From Nitrospira sp. CR1.2 (lineage in GTDB: Bacteria > Nitrospirota > Nitrospiria > Nitrospirales > Nitrospiraceae), in assembly GCA_014055495.1 (NCBI GenBank), contig WIAG01000030.1, positions 1-43,438 on the forward strand: a DNA stretch of 43,438 nucleotides, read 5' to 3'. Position numbers and translations under genes: made by a program. Positions 1,304 through 13,171 of this stretch are shown here, piece after piece. The notes under the pieces were generated by a model. It did no database searches, was not told where the DNA came from, and saw only the letters and a list, made by a program, of their open reading frames with translations. Every line of letters begins with the position of its first letter. Positions within the stretch are counted from its first letter, which is position 1.

Positions 1304-3424
1304 ATGAGCACAGACCTTTCCCATTTTAAAGATGCCTTTTTCGAGGAATCGCAGGAACACCTGACGACCATCGAAGAAGGATTGCTCCAACTCGAACAAC
1401 GTCCTGGGGACATCGACCTCTTGAATCGAATATTCCGCGGTGCGCATTCCATCAAGGGCAACAGCGGCATGTTCGGCTTCACGGCCGTGTCCCAATTCAC
1501 GCACAAGATGGAGTCGGTTCTGGACCAGCTCCGGAGCAGCCAGATGGTCGTGACGGTGGAAGTCACCGATCTCCTGCTGCAATCCCTCGATTGCCTGAAA
1601 GCGTTGATCGATTGCGCCAAATCCGGCGAGGCGCCGAACGACGAACTGGTATCCGCCTTGGGCGCGCGCCTGGAGGCCTGTCAGAACGGGGCGACCCCCA
1701 CGAAGACCGTGGCTGTGACGGCCGCACCGGTGCCTTCACACGCCACACAGGAACATCACTATACGATTACGTGGGGACCCCCTCAGTATTTGTTTCAGCG
1801 CGGCCTCGATCCCGCCCAGTTCATCAAAGAACTGGGAGAGTTGGGCCGCGTCAAGATTGCGTCCCTCGATACCAGCCGATTGCCAGGCCTCAAAGAGTTG
1901 GATCCCGAACAATGCTACTTGGGCTGGACCCTTGAAGTGGAGACGGTCAAGGAGCTGAAAGTCATCGAGGCCGTCTTCGACTTTGTCCGGGACGACAGCA
2001 CGCTCACAATCGTCGACAGACCGACGTCCGGCGCTCCGGCATCGGCCATGTCGGACGGCCCAAAACCTCTGGGAGAAATCCTTGTGGAAAGCGGGATCGT
2101 CTCACAGAGCGAGCTGAATCAGGCGCTTTCTCAACAGAAGCGCGTCGGGGAAATTCTGGTCGAACAGAAAGCCGCGACCCTCGAACAAATCTCCGAGGCA
2201 TTGAAGAAACAATCCGATAACGCGCCGGCAAAGAAGGCGGAAACGCCCTCCATACGGGTCGATACCGTCAAGATCGATCGCCTGATCAATCTGGTTGGCG
2301 AACTCGTCATTACGCAATCCATGTTGAGCGATCTCGGCTCCCGCTTTGAGATGAGTCAATTGCCGGTCCTGCTCGAACGGGTGGCGCAACTTGAACGCAA
2401 TACCCGCGAGATTCAAGAGCGGGTCATGGGTATTCGGATGGTCCCGATCGGCAATGCCTTCAGCCGGTTCCCGCGCCTCGTCCGAGACCTCTCGGGGAAG
2501 GCCGGCAAGAAGATTCATCTGATTCTGTCTGGTGAAGAGACCGAACTCGACAAGACAGTGATTGAATCCATCGGGGACCCGTTGACGCACCTGGTGCGGA
2601 ATTCAGCCGACCATGGCCTCGAAACCCCGGCGGAGCGCCTGGCGGCAGGCAAACCCGAACAGGGGATCATCCGCCTCAATGCGTTTCATGAAGGCGGCAA
2701 TATCTGCATCACCGTGGAAGACGACGGACGCGGTCTGAATCGTGAAAAAATCCTCGCCAAAGGCGTCAAGCAGGGATTGATCGCGGAGTCGGACAAATTG
2801 TCCGATGAGCAAATCTGGATGCTCATCTTCAAACCGGGTTTCTCGACCGCCGACAAGGTCACCGACGTGTCAGGCCGCGGCGTCGGGATGGATGTGGTCA
2901 AGCGCAACATCGAAGGCCTGGGCGGCACCGTCAGCATCAAGACCACGGCAGGGAAGGGCACAACCTTCACTCTGAAGCTGCCCCTCACGCTGGCGATCAT
3001 CGAAGGCATGACGGTTCGTGTCGGCAAAGATACATACATCGTTCCGCTGCTGTCGATCCTCGAATCGATTCAACCGAAGCGCGAGATGATCAAGACGATA
3101 GTCGGCAAAGGGGAACTGGTGAATGTGCGCGGTATCTATCTCCCTCTGATGCGGCTCTACGACGTGTTCCGCTTGGAACCGGAACTGTCGGATCCGACCA
3201 AGGCCATCCTGTTGATACTCGAAACCGAAGGCGAACGCGTCGCCGTGATGGTCGACGAAATTCTCGGACAACAGCAGGTGGTCATCAAGAGCATGGAGCA
3301 GAACTTCAGAAAGATCGAAGGCGTAGCCGGCGCCACCATTCTCGGGGACGGCACGGTCGGATTCATTCTGGATGTCCGCGGGCTCCTCAATATCTCTCGG
3401 AATGGGACGGCCCAAGCGGCGTAA
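1304..3424 (+). CDS. cheA: chemotaxis sensor histidine kinase CheA
   Basis: Cytoplasmic kinase of 706 residues that phosphorylates CheY and CheB in response to receptors. Domains in order: Hpt (P1) with phospho-His48 in RGAHSIKG; a region at about 150-240 resembling a P2-like docking domain; a short element at 254-303 with two copies of an LGEILVE motif; P3 dimerisation from about 315; HATPase P4 with N-box HLVRNSADHG (429-438), G1 DDGRG (473-477), F-box KPGFST (510-515) and G2 GRGVGMD (524-530); and a CheW-like P5 to the end. All catalytic motifs are intact. The 254-303 element resembles the MshEN/GspE N-terminal fold but lacks the usual Arg before LG. A GAAGG at 1293-1297 serves as ribosome site. 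Confidence 0.95.
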   Translation: MSTDLSHFKDAFFEESQEHLTTIEEGLLQLEQRPGDIDLLNRIFRGAHSIKGNSGMFGFTAVSQFTHKMESVLDQLRSSQMVVTVEVTDLLLQSLDCLKALIDCAKSGEAPNDELVSALGARLEACQNGATPTKTVAVTAAPVPSHATQEHHYTITWGPPQYLFQRGLDPAQFIKELGELGRVKIASLDTSRLPGLKELDPEQCYLGWTLEVETVKELKVIEAVFDFVRDDSTLTIVDRPTSGAPASAMSDGPKPLGEILVESGIVSQSELNQALSQQKRVGEILVEQKAATLEQISEALKKQSDNAPAKKAETPSIRVDTVKIDRLINLVGELVITQSMLSDLGSRFEMSQLPVLLERVAQLERNTREIQERVMGIRMVPIGNAFSRFPRLVRDLSGKAGKKIHLILSGEETELDKTVIESIGDPLTHLVRNSADHGLETPAERLAAGKPEQGIIRLNAFHEGGNICITVEDDGRGLNREKILAKGVKQGLIAESDKLSDEQIWMLIFKPGFSTADKVTDVSGRGVGMDVVKRNIEGLGGTVSIKTTAGKGTTFTLKLPLTLAIIEGMTVRVGKDTYIVPLLSILESIQPKREMIKTIVGKGELVNVRGIYLPLMRLYDVFRLEPELSDPTKAILLILETEGERVAVMVDEILGQQQVVIKSMEQNFRKIEGVAGATILGDGTVGFILDVRGLLNISRNGTAQAA

Positions 3425-3481: not shown

Positions 3482-3991
3482 ATGGCAGAACAGGATTCCG
3501 CGAACAAAGAATTGAATCATCAAATGGGGATCAGCACCGACGGCAGTCAGTTTCTGACGTTCCAGCTTGGTGAAGAGCTCTATGGCGTCGACATTCTTCG
3601 GGTACAGGAAATCAAAGGGTATACGGCGGTCACGCGTATTCCCAATACCCCTCCTCACATCAAAGGCGTGTTGAACCTCCGCGGGACCATCGTCCCCATT
3701 GTGGAGCTTCGCACGAAGTTCGGGATGCCGACGATCGAATACACGATGTTCACCGTGATCGTGGTGGTGGTCGTGAAGGAAAAAATCATGGGACTCGTCG
3801 TGGATGCGGTCTCCGACGTGCTCGATATCGATAAGAAAGACATTCAGCCTGCGCCGCAATTCGGCGCGCAAGTCGATGTCAGCTTCCTGAACGGCATCGG
3901 CAAAGCCGGAGACAAGCTGGTCGCGCTGCTGGACATGGATCGCCTGTTGACCGACGGAGACATGACGGAATCCGAGAGAATTGCCGCTTAA
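3482..3991 (+). CDS. cheW: chemotaxis coupling protein CheW
   Basis: Adaptor of 169 residues that links receptors to CheA in the signalling array. The CheW fold is recognised from FQLGEELYGVDILRVQEI (from about residue 27), the receptor-contact stretch RIPNTPPHIKGVLNLRG, and VDAVSDVLDI. A stretch of consecutive valines near residues 92-98 (IVVVVV) forms a core strand. It is longer than minimal CheW by a polar N-terminal leader of about 22 residues and a charged tail. GGGAGG just upstream supports the ATG. It lies between cheA and the globin-coupled receptor, so all core signalling parts are co-transcribed. Confidence 0.94.
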   Translation: MAEQDSANKELNHQMGISTDGSQFLTFQLGEELYGVDILRVQEIKGYTAVTRIPNTPPHIKGVLNLRGTIVPIVELRTKFGMPTIEYTMFTVIVVVVVKEKIMGLVVDAVSDVLDIDKKDIQPAPQFGAQVDVSFLNGIGKAGDKLVALLDMDRLLTDGDMTESERIAA

Positions 3992-4016
3992 CCATCGTAC
4001 CCAGGGAGATCACGAC

Positions 4017-6335
4017 ATGGGACTAAACGTTGAATTGTTGGAATCGAGCTTCAAACTGGTCGCGCCCCAGGGCGATGCGTTGGTGACCCGCTTCTACGAA
4101 CGGCTCTTTGAGAAGTATCCGGTCGTCAAGCCCCTGTTCAAAAACGCGTCCATCAGCGAGCAGAAGAAAAAGCTGTTGGCCTCACTGGTGCTGGTCATCC
4201 AGAACCTTCGGCATCCGGAAAAACTCACCTCGGTGCTGCAGGATATGGGAGCCAGGCATGTGGCATACGGCGCCAAACCGGCCTACTACGACGCGGTCGG
4301 AGAGAATCTATTGGCTGTGCTTGGCGAATTTGCCGGCGAGGCGTGGACGCCTGAGGTCAGTCAAGCTTGGACGGACGCCTACGCAGCGATCAAGACGATT
4401 ATGCTCGAGGGAGCAAAACGAGTACCCCACACACAAGGAGAGAAGAAGATGAGCAAGGCACCGGCAAAGAGCAAAACGAAGGCCCCCGCGCAGGTCGATA
4501 TGAGCGAGTTTTACCTGGGCGCGCTTGAGCAGTCGCAGAACAACATTCTCCTGTGCGACCGCAACCTGGTCATCACCTATGCCAATTCTACGGCGAAGAA
4601 GACGCTCGTAGCTCTGGAACCGGAGATTAAAAAAGTGCTCCCGAGGTTCAACGTGAGCACGGTGGTGGGCACCTGTATCGACGATTTCCATCTGGATCCC
4701 AGCAAGCAGCGCAAGATTTTATCCGACCCGGCGAACATGCCGCACAAGGCAGACATTCAGATCGGCCCGTTGACCCTCAGCCTGCTGGTCACCGCCGTCA
4801 TGAGCCCGAACGGAGAGTATCTCGGGAATGCGTTGGAGTGGGCCGACGTCACCGATAAGCGCAAAATGGAGCAGCAAGCGGCCGCAATGAGCAAGTCGCA
4901 AGCAGTCATCGAATTCAATCTTGATGGAAGCATCGTCACGGCCAACGACAATTTCCTCAGTTGCCTTGGTTACACCCTGGACGAGATCAAAGGACAACAC
5001 CATCGAATGTTCTGCGATCCGGCATATGTCGGCACCAGCGACTACCTGGCGTTCTGGGCGAAACTGAATCGCGGAGAGTTCGATACCGGCGTCTACAAAC
5101 GGATTGCCAAGGGCGGAAGAGAGATCTGGATCCAAGCCACGTATAACCCCATTCTCAATGCCGCGGGAAAAGCGACGAAGGTGGTGAAATTCGCCTCCGA
5201 CATCACCGCGCAAAAGCAGTCGCAATTCGAAATGGAGAAGCTGGTCGCTGAGGCACAGGCCGTTCTCGGTCGGCTCGCCAACAACGACCTGACGCAGGAA
5301 ATGACCGAGACCTATCGGGGCGATCTGGATAAGGTGAAGACGAGCATCAATGCGGTCGTCCAGAACCTCACGCAGACCATCACGACCGTGCGCGAAGCGG
5401 TCCAAGCGGTATCTTCCGGTGCGGAGCAGATCACCAAGGGCAACGAAGACCTCTCCCAGCGTACGTCGGAGCAGGCCAGCGCGCTGGAAGAAACGTCGGC
5501 GTCCATGGAAGAGATGACCTCGACCGTAAAGCAGAACGCGGACAACGCAAAGCAGGCCAACCAGTTGGCGATCGCGGCGCGGGATATCGCCGACAAGGGC
5601 GGTTCCGTCACGGTCCGCGCGGTCGAAGCCATGGGCGAGATCAACAAGAGCAGCAAAAAGATCGCGGATATCATCACCGTGATCGACGAGATCGCCTTCC
5701 AGACCAATCTCCTGGCCTTGAATGCCGCGGTGGAAGCGGCTCGAGCCGGGGAGCATGGCCGCGGCTTCGCCGTGGTTGCGGCGGAAGTCCGGAACCTGGC
5801 CCAGCGGTCGGCGACCGCAGCCAAGGAGATCAAAGGATTGATCAACGAGTCGATCCAGCGGGTGACCGACGGCAGCGAGTTGGTGAATCAATCCGGCAAG
5901 ACGCTGGAGGAAATCGTCAGCTCGGTGAAGCGCGTCACGGATATCATCGCGGAGATCACGGCCGCATCCCAGGAGCAGGCTCAGGGGATCGACCAAGTCA
6001 ACAAGGCCATCATGCAGATGGACGAAACCACTCAGCAAAACGCGGCGTTGGTTGAGGAAACGACCTCGGCCAGCCAATCGATGAAGGACCAGGCCAAGGA
6101 GTTGATGAGCCAGATGGAGATGTTCATCGTCAATTCGGCTGCCGAGCATGCGCCTGTGCGTTCTTCAACGCAGACGTCCAGAACTGTAGTCAAGCCGACG
6201 GTTGCTGCCCCGAAGCCGGCCCTGAAGAAACCGAGTTTCTCGGCCAAGCCGGCGGATGCCAAGCAGCCGGTGGGTGTCGCAGCTGGTAACGGCCATGATC
6301 GTCATAAGAAGGATGACGACTTCGAGGAGTTCTAG
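4017..6335 (+). CDS. soluble globin-PAS-PAS methyl-accepting chemotaxis receptor
   Basis: Receptor of 772 residues with no membrane segment, so it should sense inside the cell. Residues 1-135 form a bacterial globin of the flavohaemoglobin/single-domain type: B10 Tyr27 (TRFYERLF), E7 Gln49 (ISEQKKK) and proximal His81 (GARHVAYG) are all in place, predicting haem binding and O2 or NO sensing. Two PAS domains follow (about 165-280 and 292-402; the second has the GQHHRMFCDP...FWAKLNRGEF pattern of Aer-like receptors), then a HAMP-like linker and the signalling hairpin (tip [19 protein letters not shown], 573-591). The tail ends DFEEF, an aromatic CheR/CheB-tethering pentapeptide. The open frame extends to a TTG at 3981 inside cheW, but AGGGAG before the ATG at 4017 fits better. 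An internal ribosome site precedes Met145. Confidence 0.93.
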   Translation: MGLNVELLESSFKLVAPQGDALVTRFYERLFEKYPVVKPLFKNASISEQKKKLLASLVLVIQNLRHPEKLTSVLQDMGARHVAYGAKPAYYDAVGENLLAVLGEFAGEAWTPEVSQAWTDAYAAIKTIMLEGAKRVPHTQGEKKMSKAPAKSKTKAPAQVDMSEFYLGALEQSQNNILLCDRNLVITYANSTAKKTLVALEPEIKKVLPRFNVSTVVGTCIDDFHLDPSKQRKILSDPANMPHKADIQIGPLTLSLLVTAVMSPNGEYLGNALEWADVTDKRKMEQQAAAMSKSQAVIEFNLDGSIVTANDNFLSCLGYTLDEIKGQHHRMFCDPAYVGTSDYLAFWAKLNRGEFDTGVYKRIAKGGREIWIQATYNPILNAAGKATKVVKFASDITAQKQSQFEMEKLVAEAQAVLGRLANNDLTQEMTETYRGDLDKVKTSINAVVQNLTQTITTVREAVQAVSSGAEQITKGNEDLSQRTSEQASALEETSASMEEMTSTVKQNADNAKQANQLAIAARDIADKGGSVTVRAVEAMGEINKSSKKIADIITVIDEIAFQTNLLALNAAVEAARAGEHGRGFAVVAAEVRNLAQRSATAAKEIKGLINESIQRVTDGSELVNQSGKTLEEIVSSVKRVTDIIAEITAASQEQAQGIDQVNKAIMQMDETTQQNAALVEETTSASQSMKDQAKELMSQMEMFIVNSAAEHAPVRSSTQTSRTVVKPTVAAPKPALKKPSFSAKPADAKQPVGVAAGNGHDRHKKDDDFEEF
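4435..4451 (+). promoter_or_regulatory. internal Shine-Dalgarno and in-frame ATG in the globin receptor gene
   Basis: AAGGAG at 4435-4440 is followed after eight bases by an in-frame ATG at 4449, exactly at the junction between the globin domain (144 codons) and the Lys/Ala-rich linker leading to the PAS domains. It is as good a start as any in the operon and could give a 628-residue receptor without the globin. It may instead be a relic of a gene fusion. Sequence supports the site; its use is inference. Confidence 0.6.
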
Positions 6336-6343
6336 CATCCAGA

Positions 6344-6378
6344 CCGCGCGGGTGGGCATGTTTTGCCCACCCGCGCGG
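6344..6378 (+). terminator. strong GC-rich hairpin after the globin receptor gene
   Basis: A perfect 15-bp inverted repeat (arms 6344-6358 and 6364-6378) with a 5-base loop lies nine bases after the stop codon. The nearest T-run is at 6394-6398, after a second GC-rich stretch, so it is not a textbook intrinsic terminator. It could end transcription, attenuate readthrough into the DUF420-cheR part, or stabilise upstream mRNA. Confidence 0.6.
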
Positions 6379-6538
6379 CTCCCTCGCGCGGTGGTTTTTC
6401 CAAGCTTGCTTCCCCGTTTGCCGCCTGTTCCCCCTCAAGAAACAGCATCACCTAACCGATAAGTAGGTGTGCGGGTGTATTCATGCCGGACCCGCTTCGA
6501 CGGCGCCGGCCGATTTCACCTCTAGCCAAGGGCGAATC

Positions 6539-7000
6539 ATGGACCTCAAGACCATCCTCTGGTATCTCGTCCTCACCAGTTTAACGGTTGCGTATCTGGT
6601 TGTGCTTGCCGGCGTTCGCGCCGCCAAATCTCACGATGTCTCGCACCATTCCCATCGCATGATCGTCGGGTGCACCATCGTCGGCATCTGGCTGGTTGCG
6701 TACGTGCTGAAACAAGCCTTGTTCGGTCGGGAGTCGTTCCAAGGTCCCGAGAGCGACTACTGGTCGGTCTACGTCCCTATCTTCGTCACCCATATGTTGC
6801 TGGCGGTCTCAACCATCGTGCTTGGCGCGTACAACCTCTACATGGGCCTGCATCGCCTCCGGTTCGGCAGTGTGGGCGCAATGGTCGCCGGTATGACCAC
6901 ACATCGACGCATGGGTAACGCCCTGGTCTGGACATTCAGCGGTACCATGATTACCGCCTATCTGGTCTACCTGATGTTATTCGTGTGGTATCGGAGCTAA
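6539..7000 (+). CDS. DUF420-family four-helix membrane protein
   Basis: Integral membrane protein of 153 residues with four predicted helices (about 7-27, 42-60, 80-101, 127-148), matching the DUF420 family in length and in the pattern HM..A...I.LG.YNL at helix 3 and THRRMGN before helix 4. Family function is not established. Histidines lie near the helix ends (36, 37, 39, 85, 105, 122), a layout that could ligate haem or metal. The frame opens at a GTG at 6467, but the ATG at 6539 follows an AGGGCGA and starts with a typical first helix. It ends four bases before cheR, so it is tied to the chemosensory operon, an unusual setting. A role in redox or quinone sensing is only inference. Confidence 0.8.
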   Translation: MDLKTILWYLVLTSLTVAYLVVLAGVRAAKSHDVSHHSHRMIVGCTIVGIWLVAYVLKQALFGRESFQGPESDYWSVYVPIFVTHMLLAVSTIVLGAYNLYMGLHRLRFGSVGAMVAGMTTHRRMGNALVWTFSGTMITAYLVYLMLFVWYRS

Positions 7001-7004
7001 CACA

Positions 7005-7823
7005 ATGGAATACGCCATCTCGAAGCTGGAATACGAAAAGATCCGCACGTTGCTGTACGACGAAAGCGGCATTTCCTTGGGAGACAGTAAACAGTCCCTG
7101 GTGGTCTCTCGCCTGACTAAACGGCTCCGTGATCTCCAAATGGACAGCTTTGCCTCCTACTACGAGTATGTGACCGAGGACACCAGCGGCGAAGAGTTCA
7201 CGCGCATGCTGGACCTCCTCTCGACGAACAAGACGGACTTTTTCCGCGAGCCCAAACATTTCGATTTTCTCCGGGAACGCATCCTACCCACACTCGAGAA
7301 GACCAGGCAGATCCGCATCTGGTCCTCTGCCTGCTCCACCGGGGAGGAGCCCTACACGATCGCCATGACCCTGTATGAAAGCGTGCGCACCCCGGAGCAG
7401 TGGAATTTCCAGGTCCTCGCGTCGGATATCTCCACCCGCGTCCTGGCACATGCCGCCAAGGGACTGTATGCGGAAGAACGGGTACGGGAGGTTCCGGCGG
7501 AGATCGTGAAGCGGCATTTCCTCCAAGGGCGGGGAGACAGCGCAGGCCTCGTGAAGGTGAAACCGCATCTGTCAAACATCATCAAGTTTCGCCGGCTCAA
7601 TCTGATGGACGATCGGTTTCCCATCAAGGCGCCGCTCGATCTGATCTTTTGCCGCAACGTGATGATCTACTTCGATCGTCCCACGCAAGAACGCCTGGTG
7701 AACAAGTTTTATCAGCACCTCAAGCCGGGCGGATACTTGTTCATCGGGCACTCGGAAAGCCTGCAGTGGGTGTCGCACCCGTTCAAAACGATCGCCCCGA
7801 CCATCTATTGGAAGGAAGCCTGA
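7005..7823 (+). CDS. cheR: chemotaxis protein methyltransferase CheR
   Basis: SAM-dependent enzyme of 272 residues that methylates receptor glutamates for adaptation. The N-terminal helical domain contains the family stretch TNKTDFFREPKHFDFLRE (about 75-92). The SAM fold follows with WSSACSTGEEPYTIA (motif I, about 105-119), CRNVMIYFD and GHSESLQ. The beta-subdomain loop (GRGDSAGLVKV) aligns without a gap to that of Salmonella CheR (GTGPHEGLVRV), which binds a C-terminal receptor pentapeptide, consistent with the DFEEF tail of the globin receptor in this operon. The ribosome site GGAG lies within the end of the DUF420 gene, implying coupled translation; cheD starts six bases after the stop. 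Confidence 0.95.
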   Translation: MEYAISKLEYEKIRTLLYDESGISLGDSKQSLVVSRLTKRLRDLQMDSFASYYEYVTEDTSGEEFTRMLDLLSTNKTDFFREPKHFDFLRERILPTLEKTRQIRIWSSACSTGEEPYTIAMTLYESVRTPEQWNFQVLASDISTRVLAHAAKGLYAEERVREVPAEIVKRHFLQGRGDSAGLVKVKPHLSNIIKFRRLNLMDDRFPIKAPLDLIFCRNVMIYFDRPTQERLVNKFYQHLKPGGYLFIGHSESLQWVSHPFKTIAPTIYWKEA

Positions 7824-7828
7824 GGGAT

Positions 7829-8446
7829 ATGCCTGCCATCGACACCGATACATTCTCCCACATCCGGCGCATGCAGGATAAACGGTTCCCGACGGAAGTC
7901 GCCTGCATTCTGCCGGGGGAATTTTTCGTCAGTCGGGAACCGATGGTGGTGTATACCGTCCTTGGCTCCTGTATTTCCGCCTGCATTCGTGATCCGATTA
8001 TCGGCGTCGGCGGGATGAATCACTTCATGCTTCCCGCGCCGAAGGAGCACCAATCCGGAGATTCCTGGGGCGGGGAGTCGACCCGCTATGGATCATTCGC
8101 GATGGAACAGTTGATCAACGAAATCCTGAAACGCGGCGGGATGAAGCATCGGCTCGAAGTGAAACTGTTCGGCGCCGGGAGAATCTACGAAGGGAATATC
8201 GATGTGGGCGCCCGCAATACCGAATGGGTGCTGCAATTTTTGAAAACTGAAGGGTATGCCGTCGCCAAGAGCGATCTCGGCGACGTGTACCCGAGGAAGG
8301 TGTACTACTTTACCGATTCCGGGCGAGTGCTGATGAAAAAGATCGAACGTGTGAAGAACCGCACCATATACGAGCGGGAATCCGCTTACCAGCACCGGAT
8401 CGAAGAGGAACCGACGGTGCAGCAAAGCGATATCACGCTGTTCTAA
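7829..8446 (+). CDS. cheD: receptor glutamine deamidase CheD
   Basis: CheD deamidates specific receptor glutamines and in some species helps CheC. The 205-residue protein carries the catalytic Cys48 in LGSCISACI and His65 in GMNHFMLP, plus [11 protein letters not shown] and KLFGAG...NI..RN, all standard family features. The open frame extends far upstream through cheR, but the ATG at 7829 follows GAGGG at 7822-7826 and gives the normal length. The C-terminal tail after about residue 165 is longer than usual and ends SDITLF, which closely matches the NVTLF end of the first receptor in the operon. That shared tail may bind a common partner, which is inference. Confidence 0.93.
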
Positions 8447-8492: not shown

Positions 8493-9542
8493 ATGGCTAA
8501 AGTTCGAGTCCTGACGATCGATGATTCCGCGTTGATGAGACAAGTGTTGGCTGAACTCTTGTCGAAGGATCCCGACATCGAAGTGATCGGCAGCGCCCCG
8601 GATCCCTATGTCGCGAGAGAGAAGATCAAGGCGCTCAACCCCGATGTGCTCACGTTGGATGTGGAAATGCCCAAGATGGACGGCCTGACCTTTCTCGAGA
8701 AGCTCATGCGTGGACGCCCCACTCCGGTGATCATGGTCAGTTCCCTGACGGAGGTCGGCTGCGACACCACCCTCCGCGCCCTGGAACTCGGCGCGGTCGA
8801 TTTTATCACCAAGCCCAAGATCGATTTACGCCAGGGCATGGACGACGTCGCCGCCGACTTGATCGCGAAGGTCAAAGGCGCAGCTATCGCCACACTACGG
8901 CGAGTGCCTGCCGCCGGCGAACCGCGTGCGGCCAAACCGACTGCGCTCAACTCGGCCATGATCAAAACGACCGACATGATCATCGCGATCGGATCCTCCA
9001 CCGGCGGTACGGAAGCCGTGAAGGAGGTGCTGCAGGTACTGCCGCCGAACACCCCTCCGATAGTGATCACGCAACACATGCCGGAGCGTTTCACCAAGAC
9101 ATGGGCCGATCGCATGAACGACCTCTGCCGCATCTCCGTAAAGGAGGCTGAAGACGGAGACAGTGTGTTGCCCGGACATGCGCTGATCGCTCCCGGCAAC
9201 TATCACATGACCCTGGTCCGCAGCGGCGCGCGCTATTCGGTGCGCATCAATCAGAATGAGCCGGTCAATCGCCATCGCCCCTCGGTCGATGTCATGTTCG
9301 ACTCCGTCGCGCAGTACGCGGGAGGCAATTCAGTGGGCGTGATCCTGACCGGGATGGGCGGCGACGGCGCGAAGGGATTGCTCAAGATGAAAGAAGCCGG
9401 GGCCTACACCATCGCGCAGGATGAGGCCTCTTGCGTCGTTTTCGGAATGCCGAAAGAAGCCATTAAGCTGGGCGCGGCCGACGTCGTGCGCCCCCTCAAA
9501 GATATTGCCGCAACCGTGCTGAGTCATGTCACCCGTGCCTGA
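8493..9542 (+). CDS. cheB: protein-glutamate methylesterase CheB
   Basis: Response regulator-methylesterase of 349 residues that removes receptor methyl groups when phosphorylated by CheA. The receiver domain has Asp10-Asp11 and phospho-acceptor Asp56 (LDVEMP), with the switch residues VSS and Lys in TKPK. A linker of about 30 residues precedes the esterase domain, which shows the catalytic serine in [10 protein letters not shown], histidine in [10 protein letters not shown] and aspartate in GMGGDGAKG. The frame is open to a GTG at 8448, but AGAGGA seven bases before the ATG at 8493 sets the start. With cheR and cheD it completes the adaptation set for the receptors here. Confidence 0.95.
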
Positions 9543-9571: not shown

Positions 9572-9910
9572 ATGAAAATCACGAAGGAAGTCAATAACCG
9601 GAAGGTGACCTTGAAGCTGGAAGGCAACTTTACGTACACACAGCGTAAACCCTTTCAGGAAATGTTGAAATCGGTCGCCGTCGACGGAGTCGACCAGATC
9701 GTGATCGACCTCTCACAGGTGGCGTTTCTCGACAGCGCGGCATTAGGACTGCTGATGATTTCCCACCGGCAGTTGCAAGCGGAGAAACGTGCGTTGTCGC
9801 TGGCCTATCCCCAGCCGACGGTCCGGCAGATTATCGAGTTGGCGAATTTGCACAAGACGATTCCGCTGATCGAAACGGACGCCCCGTCGATGGCCAAGAA
9901 GAGCGCTTGA
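9572..9910 (+). CDS. STAS-domain anti-sigma factor antagonist (first copy)
   Basis: A 112-residue STAS protein of the SpoIIAA/RsbV type. The phosphorylation site is in VAFLDSAALGLL, with Asp54-Ser55 as the expected switch pair. Such proteins bind an anti-sigma factor/kinase when dephosphorylated and are released when the kinase phosphorylates the serine. GAGGAG upstream supports the ATG. It is followed by a second STAS gene of nearly the same length that shares LANLH near its end and the same FLDS core, so the two look like a tandem duplication. With the PP2C and RsbW-type genes downstream it forms a partner-switching module. Its final target is not visible here. Confidence 0.88.
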   Translation: MKITKEVNNRKVTLKLEGNFTYTQRKPFQEMLKSVAVDGVDQIVIDLSQVAFLDSAALGLLMISHRQLQAEKRALSLAYPQPTVRQIIELANLHKTIPLIETDAPSMAKKSA

Positions 9911-9941
9911 GCCCGCTCCACGGTCAGGGAGAGAGCCGGGC

Positions 9942-10292
9942 ATGCAGATTACTGAGCGACGTGTCGGAAATGCCGTCATTCTCGATCTGGTCGGGGAGCT
10001 GACCTACGCCAACCGCGCCGCCTTCAAGGGGGCGGTTGATCGCGTCAAATCGACCGGGTGCCGGCAGGTGATTCTGAACATGCACGGGGTTCGCTTCCTG
10101 GACAGTTCGGCACTCGGAACCTTGGCACTCGTGGCACAAAGCCTGAGCGGCAGGCCGGGACGAATCGCGCTCCTGAACCCGCAAAGTTACGTGAAGGAAA
10201 TCATCACTCTAGCCAACCTGCATCAGATGTTGCCGGTCTACCACTCGGAGCAGGACGCCCTTGCGGCAACGACCCTGCCGGCGGCCGGTTGA
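9942..10292 (+). CDS. STAS-domain anti-sigma factor antagonist (second copy)
   Basis: A 116-residue STAS protein with the switch motif RFLDSSALGTL (Asp54, then Ser55-Ser56). It is the likely paralogue of the gene 31 bases upstream. The N-terminal strand MQITERRVGNAVILDLVGEL matches the RsbV/SpoIIAA beginning, and LANLHQMLPVY is the conserved end. Two antagonists with one phosphatase and one kinase suggest two outputs, or one that signals and one that titrates the kinase. By analogy with Pseudomonas HsbA, one could bind a FlgM-like anti-sigma factor or a diguanylate cyclase; that is inference. Confidence 0.88.
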   Translation: MQITERRVGNAVILDLVGELTYANRAAFKGAVDRVKSTGCRQVILNMHGVRFLDSSALGTLALVAQSLSGRPGRIALLNPQSYVKEIITLANLHQMLPVYHSEQDALAATTLPAAG

Positions 10293-10313
10293 AGACTCTC
10301 AGGAGCAGTGTAC

Positions 10314-11579
10314 GTGGGTGAACCCGCACCGCAGATGACACAGCCGGCCGGCGTTGGGCCGGCTGCCAAACCAACCCCGGTGATTTTGCTCGTCGACGAC
10401 GATGAAATCACGAGAATCGGCATGGCCGGTCGGTTGAAACGTTTGGGGTATCGTGTGATCGAGGCGGTCGATGGAAGCGCCGGCTTGACCGCGATCCGCG
10501 CGCACCGTCCGGACTTGGTGATCCTCGATTGGATGATGCCGGGCATGGACGGTCCCAGTGTCTGCGAGGCGATTCGTGCGGATCCCGAATTACGATCCAG
10601 CCAGGTCGTCCTCATGACCGCGCATGACCGGCCCGAGCAGATTGCCGAAGGGCTCTCGCGCGGCGCCGACGATTTTCTCAGTAAAGCCGCCAGCAAACAG
10701 GAAGTCTTGGCGCGGGTGCACGCCAGCCTCCGATCCAGCGCCCTGGTTCGTGAGATCGAACGCACCCGGGACGACCTGGATCGGTCGCACAAATTACTCT
10801 CAGCCAAACAGCACGAGTTGGAGAGCGAACTCCAGTCGGCCGCGGCCTTCGTGCGTGCGCAACTCCCCCTGCCGGGGATGCCGGCGCCGGGTATCGCCAT
10901 GCACTGGGCCTATCAACCGTCGCTTGCGTTGGGGGGCGATCTCTTCCAGGTCTGTCCCTGGGGACCGGATGCGCTCGGGCTCTATATTCTCGATGCGTCC
11001 GGCCACGGTGTCGCCGCAGCCTTGCGCGCAGTGGGACTCATGAGTTTTCTGCGCGAAGACAATCTCCTGAAAGCCGTGGGCAGTTTCGATCCCGGAGCGA
11101 TCGTGAACGAGGCCAACCGGCGTTTTCCCCTCACGCAGGACGGCGAGTATTTTACCCTCTGGGTGGGGCGACTCGATCTCGAGTCTTCCCGCTTGTCCTA
11201 TGCCACCGCAGGCCATGGGGGCGCATTTGTGCATGCCAACAGTGGCGACTCCCGATGGCTCGCCTCCGCCAGTCTTCCGTTGGGATTCGATCCTGACTCG
11301 ACGTTCGACAGCGTCTCAACGCAGCTGCAGCCGCTCGATCGTCTGTATCTGCTGAGCGACGGCATCTACGAAGCGCCGTCGTCGACCGGTGAACTCTGGG
11401 GCCGAGCTCGCCTGCAGGCCACACTCGAGGAGCATCACGCGTCCACACTCGTACACAGCATCACGGAAACCATGGCCACCGCCCATCACTGGTTAGGCGG
11501 GGACATCTTCCCCGACGATGTCGCGCTGCTCGGGCTGGAAATTCAGGACCGGTCGACCACGCACAAGGGGAGGGCATAG
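10314..11579 (+). CDS. response regulator with PP2C (RsbU/SpoIIE-type) phosphatase output
   Basis: Protein of 421 residues expected to dephosphorylate the STAS proteins when its receiver is phosphorylated. The receiver (about 22-140) has Asp28-Asp30, phospho-acceptor Asp72 (ILDWMMP), Thr102 and Lys124. A coiled-coil signalling helix (about 145-180) leads to a SpoIIE/PP2C domain with metal-binding acidic residues Asp209 (GGDLF), Asp227 (DASGHG), Asp349 (LSDG) and Asp401-Asp402 (PDDVALL), all intact. The frame begins at a GTG at 10308, but the GTG at 10314 has better spacing from AGGAG (10301-10305). The domain order matches the front of Pseudomonas HsbR. Its stop overlaps the Hpt start. Confidence 0.9.
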   Translation: MGEPAPQMTQPAGVGPAAKPTPVILLVDDDEITRIGMAGRLKRLGYRVIEAVDGSAGLTAIRAHRPDLVILDWMMPGMDGPSVCEAIRADPELRSSQVVLMTAHDRPEQIAEGLSRGADDFLSKAASKQEVLARVHASLRSSALVREIERTRDDLDRSHKLLSAKQHELESELQSAAAFVRAQLPLPGMPAPGIAMHWAYQPSLALGGDLFQVCPWGPDALGLYILDASGHGVAAALRAVGLMSFLREDNLLKAVGSFDPGAIVNEANRRFPLTQDGEYFTLWVGRLDLESSRLSYATAGHGGAFVHANSGDSRWLASASLPLGFDPDSTFDSVSTQLQPLDRLYLLSDGIYEAPSSTGELWGRARLQATLEEHHASTLVHSITETMATAHHWLGGDIFPDDVALLGLEIQDRSTTHKGRA

Positions 11580-11938
11580 TGGAATCTCAATCAATCATGG
11601 ACCTGGCTGCTGCACTCGAGCGGTTGGACGGGGACCAGGAGCTCTTTCTGACGTTGGCCGGCCTGTTCGTGGAACGCACCCCCCAAGCACTTGCCGCCCT
11701 CCGGACGGCGATGACCGCCGGCGACCTCCCGGCTCTGATCAAGGAAGCGCACAAGCTGAAGGGATCGGCCATGGAGTTCTGCGCCAAACCGGCGGTGGCT
11801 TCCGCGGCCCACCTCGAAGAATCCGCGCGCAAGGCCGCCGTACAGGAACTCGCCGCACTGGCCGAGCAGGTGCAGGCAGAGACCGCGCGACTCACGGCGG
11901 CCCTGACCACGATCATCGAAAAGGGCTTTCCCACATGA
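11579..11938 (+). CDS. stand-alone histidine phosphotransfer (Hpt) protein
   Basis: Small helical protein of 119 residues with the Hpt signature EAHKLKGSAMEF; His58 is the predicted phospho-site. It would shuttle phosphate between a kinase (CheA or an unlinked hybrid kinase) and the receivers on either side of it. The GTG at 11579 overlaps the upstream stop by one base and has GGGGAGGG just before it; an in-frame ATG at 11597 is the alternative. Its own stop overlaps the next start as ATGA, so the three genes are translationally coupled. The closest known arrangement is HptB with HsbR in Pseudomonas. There is no catalytic domain, so it cannot autophosphorylate. Confidence 0.88.
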   Translation: MESQSIMDLAAALERLDGDQELFLTLAGLFVERTPQALAALRTAMTAGDLPALIKEAHKLKGSAMEFCAKPAVASAAHLEESARKAAVQELAALAEQVQAETARLTAALTTIIEKGFPT

Positions 11939-12834
11939 CTGTGCCGGGCTCGTCCCAGACGCTGTTGACCGTCATCCCCGATGCGGACGCATTAGCCCTC
12001 ACGCTGGAACAAGCCACCTCTCGCAACCTCTCCGTCGTCACCGCTCCGGATCCGAAGGCGGCACTCGCCATGGTCGAGATGGCACGACCTGAGATCGTCA
12101 TCACCGACCTGTTCTTGCCGGGGCGTATGGGGTTGGTGCTGATTCAGGACATACACAAGCGGGCTCCCGCCACAGCCACGATTGCGTCGACCCAGACAAC
12201 GGAGCAGGGGACGATCCTCGCGGCCATACGCGCGGGCGCCACAGACTATCTGCCGCTCCCGACCAGCGGGAAGGAGATCGGCCTGGCCCTGGATCGAGCG
12301 ATCCAACGGCTCTCACGCCCGGTGGAGGCGATTCCCGGCATCGATCGACTGGACTACCGTGTGACCATCGGCACCGATCCCCACCACGTCGAAGCCTGTG
12401 TGAGCTGGTTGATGGAGCAGACCGCCGGAAACCTGCCGGAATCTCAACGCCTGCACCTCCAGGCCACCCTCATCGAACTTATCGTCAACGCCGTGGAACA
12501 TGGCAGCCTCGAAATCCAATATCACGAGAAACGCCAGGCGCTCAGCACCGACCGATTCGATGCGTTGATCGAGGCGCGCCGGCGGGACCCGCGCTTCGCC
12601 GAGCGTCGCGTGGTCGTCCAGGCCGGGTACGACCTTCGCCATCGACGACTCCACTACGCGATTGCGGATGAGGGGAACGGGTTTGCCTGGAACCGCCTGC
12701 TGACGCGGGGCGACCAGCCCTGCGACAGCCATGACGCCAACGGCCGCGGCGTGTTTCTCTCCAAGGCCTTCTTCCCCGATTTGACCTATAACGAGCAAGG
12801 TACCCAGGTGACGTTCTCCGTTCCGCTTCCGTAA
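11935..12834 (+). CDS. receiver domain fused to RsbW-type HATPase (serine kinase/anti-sigma)
   Basis: A 299-residue protein predicted to phosphorylate the STAS proteins. The N-terminal receiver keeps Asp58 (VITDLFLPG), but the switch lysine position reads YLPLP, with Pro107 in place of Lys, and the acidic cluster is reduced to IPDADAL, so it may be a pseudo-receiver. The C-terminal HATPase has the N-box LIELIVNAVEHG (about 180-191), G1 ADEGNGF (244-250) and G2 NGRGVFL (269-275), typical of RsbW/SpoIIAB-like kinases. A 30-residue charged insert lies between N-box and G1. The frame extends upstream, but the ATG overlapping the Hpt stop is the evident start. It completes the STAS-PP2C-kinase triad. 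Confidence 0.85.
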   Translation: MTVPGSSQTLLTVIPDADALALTLEQATSRNLSVVTAPDPKAALAMVEMARPEIVITDLFLPGRMGLVLIQDIHKRAPATATIASTQTTEQGTILAAIRAGATDYLPLPTSGKEIGLALDRAIQRLSRPVEAIPGIDRLDYRVTIGTDPHHVEACVSWLMEQTAGNLPESQRLHLQATLIELIVNAVEHGSLEIQYHEKRQALSTDRFDALIEARRRDPRFAERRVVVQAGYDLRHRRLHYAIADEGNGFAWNRLLTRGDQPCDSHDANGRGVFLSKAFFPDLTYNEQGTQVTFSVPLP

Positions 12835-12931
12835 GCACCGCCGCTCGCCGACTTGACGCCCCTCCGCTCCGCAGTTTATCTTCCCCTCCCTGAGACCCGC
12901 GATGCACCCCCGATTCACCACGAGGCTCTCC

Positions 12932-13171
12932 ATGACGCGTCCTGCTCGCCTGCTGTGCTCAATTATGTTGGTGTCCCTGTTGACCGCCTGCGGTAGCGCA
13001 GAGTGGGTCCATCCGACGCGCCCGAAAGACCAGTACGCCCAGGACTACAACAAGTGTCAGGCCGACACCCTGCGCGATCCCAAGCTGCAACAGGGCATTC
13101 AACTCCTGATCATTCAAGCCACCGAACGCTGCCTGCAAAAGCAAGGGTGGAGGCTGGTCGAAAAGGAATAA
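12932..13171 (+). CDS. small lipoprotein of unknown function
   Basis: A 79-residue precursor with a signal peptide and lipobox: basic start MTRPARL, hydrophobic stretch, then SLLTACGS with the lipidated Cys at residue 20. The mature part is about 60 residues with two further cysteines (near DYNKCQADT and ATERCLQK), spaced so that they could form a disulfide. The frame begins at 12902, but GAGG at 12922-12925 points to the ATG at 12932. It lies about 100 bases after the signalling operon. I do not recognise a characterised family; short cysteine-bearing lipoproteins of this kind are common and uncharacterised. Confidence 0.72.
   Translation: MTRPARLLCSIMLVSLLTACGSAEWVHPTRPKDQYAQDYNKCQADTLRDPKLQQGIQLLIIQATERCLQKQGWRLVEKE

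Follow-up and report, generated by a model that had tools for sequence, protein, structure and literature searches.

Which signal sets the serine-phosphorylation switch encoded directly behind cheB in Nitrospira sp. CR1.2, and what might that switch control? The locus lies on contig WIAG01000030.1 (C118), a stretch of 43,438 nucleotides (nt) from a 4.06-Mb genome; the stretch is called the window here. Open reading frame (ORF) and Pfam scans of the window bore out the tight five-gene run after cheB described in the initial annotation, i.e., genes for two STAS proteins (STAS1 and STAS2), a receiver-PP2C phosphatase, a free histidine phosphotransfer (Hpt) protein, and a receiver-RsbW-type kinase (together, the module; Table 1). 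The last three genes overlap, as had been described (1 nt for PP2C/Hpt and 4 nt for Hpt/kinase), and the Hpt gene literally stands between the two receiver genes. With a probability of roughly 0.6, we read the five genes as a split HptB-HsbR-HsbA-like partner switch that belongs to the flagellar late-gene (FliA) regulon and is fed by a hybrid kinase, via Hpt, at the receiver of the PP2C protein. Comparisons were made with 29 genomes of the genus and 296 genomes from the phylum, many of which are drafts.

The phosphatase, the STAS antagonists, and the RsbW-type kinase are encoded together with their predicted catalytic and phosphoacceptor residues intact. Ser55 is the candidate phosphoacceptor of both STAS1 (FxDS motif in 28 of 28 sequences) and STAS2, and FLDS is present in both proteins. 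The Hpt protein carries His58 within HKLKGSA, and this His is conserved in relatives. All four metal-binding Asp motifs of the PP2C domain are kept (GGD, DASGHG, SDG, and PDD), and the N, G1, and G2 boxes of the kinase are all present. Since the residues that a partner switch requires are in place, the observation of a switch module stands.

The two receivers have fared differently. In the receiver of the PP2C protein (phosphoacceptor Asp74), the set D/E-D-D-T-K is found in 59 of 61 sequences, among them every complete ortholog, and is partial in the remainder, and the ratio of nonsynonymous to synonymous substitution rates (dN/dS) is 0.01 to 0.06. The kinase receiver of the window has IPDTL in place of the canonical DDDTK. 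Across the kinase receivers the phosphoacceptor Asp is kept, while the second pocket Asp is retained in only 6 of 61 and the Thr/Ser in 16 of 61; the Lys has also been lost in the species of the window and its near kin, and dN/dS is 0.13 to 0.35. The canonical set is retained in two order-level relatives (G050 and G060). Because the PP2C receiver is canonical and constrained and the kinase receiver is degenerate, the phosphatase is the most likely point of action of the phosphate, and the kinase would be regulated otherwise or not at all. Phosphorylation of both receivers, as had been proposed, is unlikely given the degeneration of the kinase receiver across the family. The closest match of the kinase in both sequence and fold (AlphaFold2 model; mean pLDDT, 86; pTM, 0.61) is LvrC of Leptospira (PDB 9qih), which likewise joins a receiver to an RsbW-type Bergerat domain; however, LvrC has a canonical receiver, which LvrB phosphorylates (PMC13269768), whereas the kinase receiver of the window has lost most of the conserved set. 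The genome also encodes, at G000:C42:90234-91172 (L064:10235-11173), a second receiver-HATPase kinase that stands alone; its receiver has the canonical residues, and a sigma-28-like site lies 114 nt 5' of the gene.

Candidate donors of the phosphoryl group are found among the hybrid kinases. In this genome, an HD-GYP gene and a hybrid-kinase gene are found no more than ~7 kb from flgM. The hybrid kinase in this flgM/fliA locus (G000:C29:50708-53545; PAS-PAS-HisKA-HATPase-REC-REC-Hpt) is encoded with the HD-GYP protein, and the two are 36% and 34% identical, respectively, over their full lengths to the pair that lies between the STAS and kinase genes in G050. Orthologs of the hybrid kinase occur in 27 of the 29 genus genomes. 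In G050 and G060, a chemotaxis cluster holds, side by side, genes for a STAS protein, a DUF3391-HD-GYP protein, a hybrid kinase with a terminal Hpt domain, and the kinase; G030 has, between PP2C and Hpt, another hybrid kinase whose catalytic half is similar; and in genus g3, motAB precedes the module and a hybrid kinase is encoded within it. Since hybrid-kinase genes, not cheA, are found inside the module in relatives, the gene neighbourhood points to hybrid kinases as the donors, as in Pseudomonas.

The placement of the module in the FliA regulon is suggested by a putative promoter. The ~200 nt before the DUF420 gene, the first of the presumed transcription unit DUF420-cheRDB-module, are poorly conserved except for CTCAAGAA and CCGATA, which are spaced as in a sigma-28 promoter, the consensus of which served for comparison. 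This island is seen in most genus members and is kept in G020, G003, G001, and G006, which lack the CheA of the window; sites resembling it precede the unit in other genera. The chance expectation of the pattern is 0.13 per window. Genome-wide, it gave 19 matches versus 5 for a reversed control, although ~9 of the 19 have no flagellar-type neighbour and may be chance matches. In this genome, the pattern lies 5' of fliC, flgM, fliW, the second che operon, and the receptor gene that is the probable start of the che operon of the window, as well as 5' of genes (several named by eye) for a CZB-like protein, the HD-GYP/hybrid-kinase pair, another HD-GYP protein, and the second receiver-kinase. The unit is thus predicted to have its own functional promoter, situated between the cheA operon and the unit. 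A transcription stop at the same place is not relied on, as the terminator scan gave 6 matches versus 5.8 in shuffles, and no homologous terminator was recovered there in relatives. A long GC-rich inverted repeat (6343-6391), situated 3' of the receptor gene and 5' of the sigma-28-like site, is overlapped by a terminator-like match (from scans at chance level).

The distribution of the module likewise makes a link to motility likely, as the initial annotation had rightly suspected. An orthologous kinase is present in 27 of the 29 genus genomes and in ~50 further Nitrospirales genomes among the 296 from the phylum, with scores falling sharply beyond this group; the kinase of the window is 78% identical to that of a locus in a Nitrospira defluvii metagenome-assembled genome. 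The order STAS-(STAS)-REC/PP2C-Hpt-REC/kinase recurs in genera g1, g6, g21, and g3, with almost identical intergenic spacing in relatives, and cheR-cheD-cheB usually lies just 5' of the module in g1, g6, and g21. As gene order is conserved across Nitrospiraceae genera, the arrangement is not due to chance. The module is clustered with flagellar and chemotaxis genes (motAB, cheRDB, and the fliC cluster), and in G050, a receiver-PP2C gene and a second receiver-kinase gene directly follow a FliA-like gene (FliA read by eye). Outside the genus, FliG was found in 48 of 51 module bearers tested versus 9 of 21 nonbearers (not corrected for relatedness). Since most bearers have FliG and CheA has often been lost (see below), the module goes with flagella rather than with the CheA of the window. 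No published description of this Nitrospira block was found in the literature searched.

On the basis of its parts and architecture, the module resembles HptB-HsbR-HsbA of Pseudomonas aeruginosa (PA3345-PA3347), which likewise comprises an Hpt protein, a receiver, a PP2C domain, an RsbW-type kinase, and a STAS antagonist, and in which hybrid kinases feed the Hpt protein, as proposed here for Nitrospira. The free Hpt next to the module is common to both systems. HsbR is one chain with one receiver, whereas the Nitrospira phosphatase and kinase are encoded separately in every locus that holds both, each with a receiver of its own; there are two STAS proteins in Nitrospira and HsbA alone in P. 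aeruginosa. The likeness and the split architecture stated in the initial annotation are thus both confirmed. Chemotaxis genes also adjoin the P. aeruginosa locus; a link to che genes is therefore not new by itself. No hsbD-like gene was found adjacent to the Nitrospira module. Among the NCBIfam families, the phosphatase best matches RssB, a Pseudomonas-type receiver-PP2C protein of the same domain order; the match (133.6 bits) is far under the family cut-off of 700 bits, and the Nitrospira protein retains all of the metal-binding Asp motifs. SypE of Vibrio fischeri is a single fused protein in a biofilm locus, unlike the Nitrospira proteins, and the SypE-SypA system is not known to have a free Hpt, again unlike Nitrospira. 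SypE is a serine kinase/phosphatase response regulator that acts on a STAS protein (PMC8256260), an action also proposed for the split Nitrospira proteins. CrsR-CrsA of Shewanella oneidensis combines a receiver-PP2C-kinase/anti-sigma protein with an antagonist and acts on RpoS (PMC6482189); the Nitrospira genome also has an RpoS-like sigma factor, but CrsR is a fused chain, and sigma binding in Nitrospira is putative. The unphosphorylated form of P. aeruginosa HsbA binds FlgM, whereas the phosphorylated form has HsbR or the diguanylate cyclase HsbD as its partner; HsbR also binds RpoS (PMC5085249; PMC6482189). The Nitrospirales module probably works like HptB-HsbR-HsbA, but without the fused HsbR chain, and it may share the FlgM step.

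Seen directly in the sequences are which genes are present and in what order, how far they are conserved, the residues of the active sites, the promoter-like pattern, the selection patterns, and the retention of the module where CheA has been lost; each phosphotransfer step, the identity of the hybrid-kinase donor, and the output are inferred. A hybrid kinase (most likely that of the flgM/fliA locus) would phosphorylate Hpt, from which the PP2C receiver would then take over the phosphoryl group. The phosphorylated receiver would switch on the phosphatase to dephosphorylate STAS2 and probably STAS1, while the RsbW-type kinase, its receiver largely worn out, would phosphorylate the same serine(s) in a largely constitutive manner. 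The core substrate is likely to be STAS2, since STAS2 and the kinase are linked: the two were lost together in G004 (where STAS1, PP2C, and Hpt remain), and the single STAS protein beside the kinase is STAS2-like in G030, G050, and G060 (loci L058, L061, and L062). A second target may exist for STAS1. Which partner the STAS proteins bind would then depend on whether they are phosphorylated; likely partners are FlgM, from which FliA would be released, and/or a sink of the kinase itself, e.g., an RpoS-like sigma factor, and the result would be a swim-versus-settle choice. FlgM is found in 28 of the 29 genus genomes, that of the window included, and the five sigma factors with region 3 encoded in the latter include FliA and an RpoS-like protein (327 bits; cut-off, 394). 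The predicted output is FlgM/FliA, the RpoS-like sigma factor, or cyclic di-GMP (c-di-GMP)/exopolysaccharide (EPS).

Several observations weigh against this reading. The module holds no output gene, and the idea of FlgM binding is taken over from Pseudomonas. In the related genome G025, ~50 kb separate the hybrid kinase from the module, and 15 Hpt domains are encoded in the genome of the window, so there may be more than one donor. FliG is missing from three module bearers (G133, G193, and G208), and the promoter pattern before DUF420 is missing from G014 and G007. Some absences in draft genomes may be assembly gaps, though the deletions in L045 and L054 are on unbroken contigs. Finally, cheR-cheD-cheB is on the same presumed transcript in most genomes, and some coupling of the module to receptor adaptation is possible.

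Of the alternatives, the one that survives best, though we still consider it unlikely, is a local, post-translational output in which the STAS proteins would act not on a sigma factor but on the motor/stator, on CheB/CheD, or on the sigma-28-controlled HD-GYP proteins. Where cheRDB is missing, the module directly follows motA-motB-DUF420 (on unbroken contigs in G020 and G012), an HD-GYP gene lies between the STAS and kinase genes in G050 and G060, and STAS-type proteins can bind nonsigma targets such as HsbD (PMC5085249). However, cheRDB is dispensable for retention of the module, and the HD-GYP gene is so placed in these two genomes only. More doubtful is a self-referring flagellar commitment switch, in which a FliA-made circuit (the hybrid kinase, HD-GYP proteins, split switch, second receiver-kinase, and FlgM) would feed back on FlgM/FliA; the kinase receiver would be a phosphorylation-independent dock for the phosphatase receiver or Hpt, with STAS2 on the kinase/sigma side and STAS1 serving a second target. 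If this were true, one phosphoryl group would set the balance of two separate enzymes.

Control of the adjoining EPS/biofilm genes (wecB and the exosortase/EPS cluster, 13.3 to 41.4 kb) in the manner of SypE-SypA, which acts on biofilm formation (PMC8256260), appears improbable. The wecB gene lies a few hundred nt 3' of the module in most genus members and is followed in the window by the EPS/exosortase cluster, but g6, g21, and g3, as well as G001, G006, and G013, keep the module although no wecB was found behind it, and the sigma-28-type promoter points to the flagellar regulon. The EPS/exosortase locus itself (18977-41393) encodes a GDP-mannose dehydratase, a glycosyltransferase, a Wzy-like protein, a flippase, an EpsH-DUF3485 exosortase, a TPR protein, a polysaccharide export protein, a 589-residue protein (Wzz-like by eye), and a ParA-like ATPase.

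Slightly less probable still is that the CheA of the cluster phosphorylates Hpt and/or both receivers, so that chemoreceptor signals jointly set CheY and the serine switch, as the initial annotation had supposed. The module adjoins cheRDB directly, cheB lying upstream of STAS1 within one presumed transcription unit (not transcribed separately, as far as the layout indicates), cheRDB is upstream in most bearers, and the CheA of the window is present in 40 of the 52 kinase-bearing Nitrospirales outside the genus. Three CheA types occur in the genus: that of the window (at least 86% identity; 15 of 29 genomes), a second (~45% identical; 21 of 29), and a long one (~1100 residues; nearly all genomes), which by inference serves pili. 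The module is found without the CheA of the window in 12 of the 27 kinase-bearing Nitrospira genomes, 7 of which also lack the second type and thus have neither flagellar CheA, and in 12 of the 52 bearers outside the genus. With 24 genomes keeping the module without it, co-occurrence with its own CheA is not strict. Deletion ends are visible beside intact modules, i.e., a 26-residue CheR stub (L045) and 25- to 29-residue CheB C-terminal stubs (L048, L050, and L054). The CheA state changes at least six times on the tree of module proteins (some nodes are weak), and dN/dS of the module genes in CheA-less pairs is about 0.06 to 0.2, indicating purifying selection. Together with the module's own putative promoter, the degenerate kinase receiver, and the hybrid-kinase genes inside the module, this distribution led us to reject CheA as a necessary input and core function, although CheA may still take part in phosphotransfer in those genomes that have it. 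The CheA of the window (1304-3424; residues 255 to 303) and the second CheA (L084:15390-17282) carry an MshE-type c-di-GMP-binding motif (43 to 49 bits versus an NCBIfam cut-off of 38). MshEN-CheA fusions have already been listed (PMC5013675); possible c-di-GMP control of CheA beside HD-GYP genes with FliA-type promoters is a point of interest in Nitrospira.

Least probable is a classic RsbU-RsbV-RsbW pathway acting on a SigB/SigF-type sigma factor, for which the same three enzyme classes, the TIGR00377 matches of both STAS proteins, and the fold shared with LvrC, proposed as a receiver-controlled anti-sigma factor (PMC13269768), would speak, but no SigB/F/G-type sigma factor exceeded the cut-off among the four scanned (FliA and the RpoH-, RpoS-, and RpoD-like proteins; TIGR02980, 85 to 128 bits versus 234), the fifth, a 623-residue protein of RpoD size, being outside that scan.

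Table 1. Features of the window in and around the module
Feature	Position	Strand	Basis or remark
cheY, cheA, cheW	between 853 and 3991
Chemoreceptor, globin-PAS	3981-6335
Sigma-28 (FliA)-like promoter TCAAG-N16-CCGATA	6435..6461	+	77 nt 5' of DUF420; conserved island
DUF420 membrane protein, gene 1 of unit	6539..7000	+	Pfam PF04238, 3.7e-25; position conserved in relatives
CheR receptor methyltransferase	7005..7823	+	Pfam
CheD receptor deamidase	7826..8446	+	Pfam
CheB receptor methylesterase	8493..9542	+	Pfam
STAS1, anti-sigma-antagonist type	9572..9910	+	PF01740, E 1e-16; TIGR00377 above cut-off
STAS2, anti-sigma-antagonist type	9942..10292	+	Pfam STAS, E 1e-17; TIGR00377 above cut-off
Receiver-PP2C (SpoIIE-type) phosphatase	10308..11579	+	Pfam receiver 6e-26, SpoIIE/PP2C 3e-36
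Free Hpt phosphotransfer protein	11579..11938	+	Pfam 2e-10
Receiver + RsbW-type (HATPase_c_2) serine kinase	11935..12834	+	Pfam receiver 3e-13, HATPase_c_2 3e-11
Small lipoprotein-like gene	12902..13171	+	adjoins kinase in genera g1, g3, and part of g6; unit membership uncertain

The gaps from cheB through STAS1 and STAS2 to the PP2C gene are 29, 31, and 15 nt. The kinase starts at ATG 11935 (ATGA overlap with Hpt), and a longer ORF from 11518 is an out-of-frame artefact. The lipoprotein-like gene is retained even in G004, where the kinase is gone. The chemoreceptor has an N-terminal globin domain (PF00042) in addition to PAS and HAMP-like parts and is a possible haem-based oxygen sensor. Two similar contigs of one draft genome (G007:C158 and G007:C160; L085 and L086) each carry a che-I operon, which is possibly a duplication or an assembly artefact.

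Members of the genus Nitrospira oxidise nitrite, are widespread, and are often found in flocs and biofilms. No described swimming/settling switch for Nitrospira was found in the literature searched. The module would be a conserved and complete HptB-HsbR-HsbA-like system outside Proteobacteria, split into single-function proteins, and the repeated natural losses of the surrounding chemotaxis genes make the inputs and outputs of such a switch testable piece by piece.

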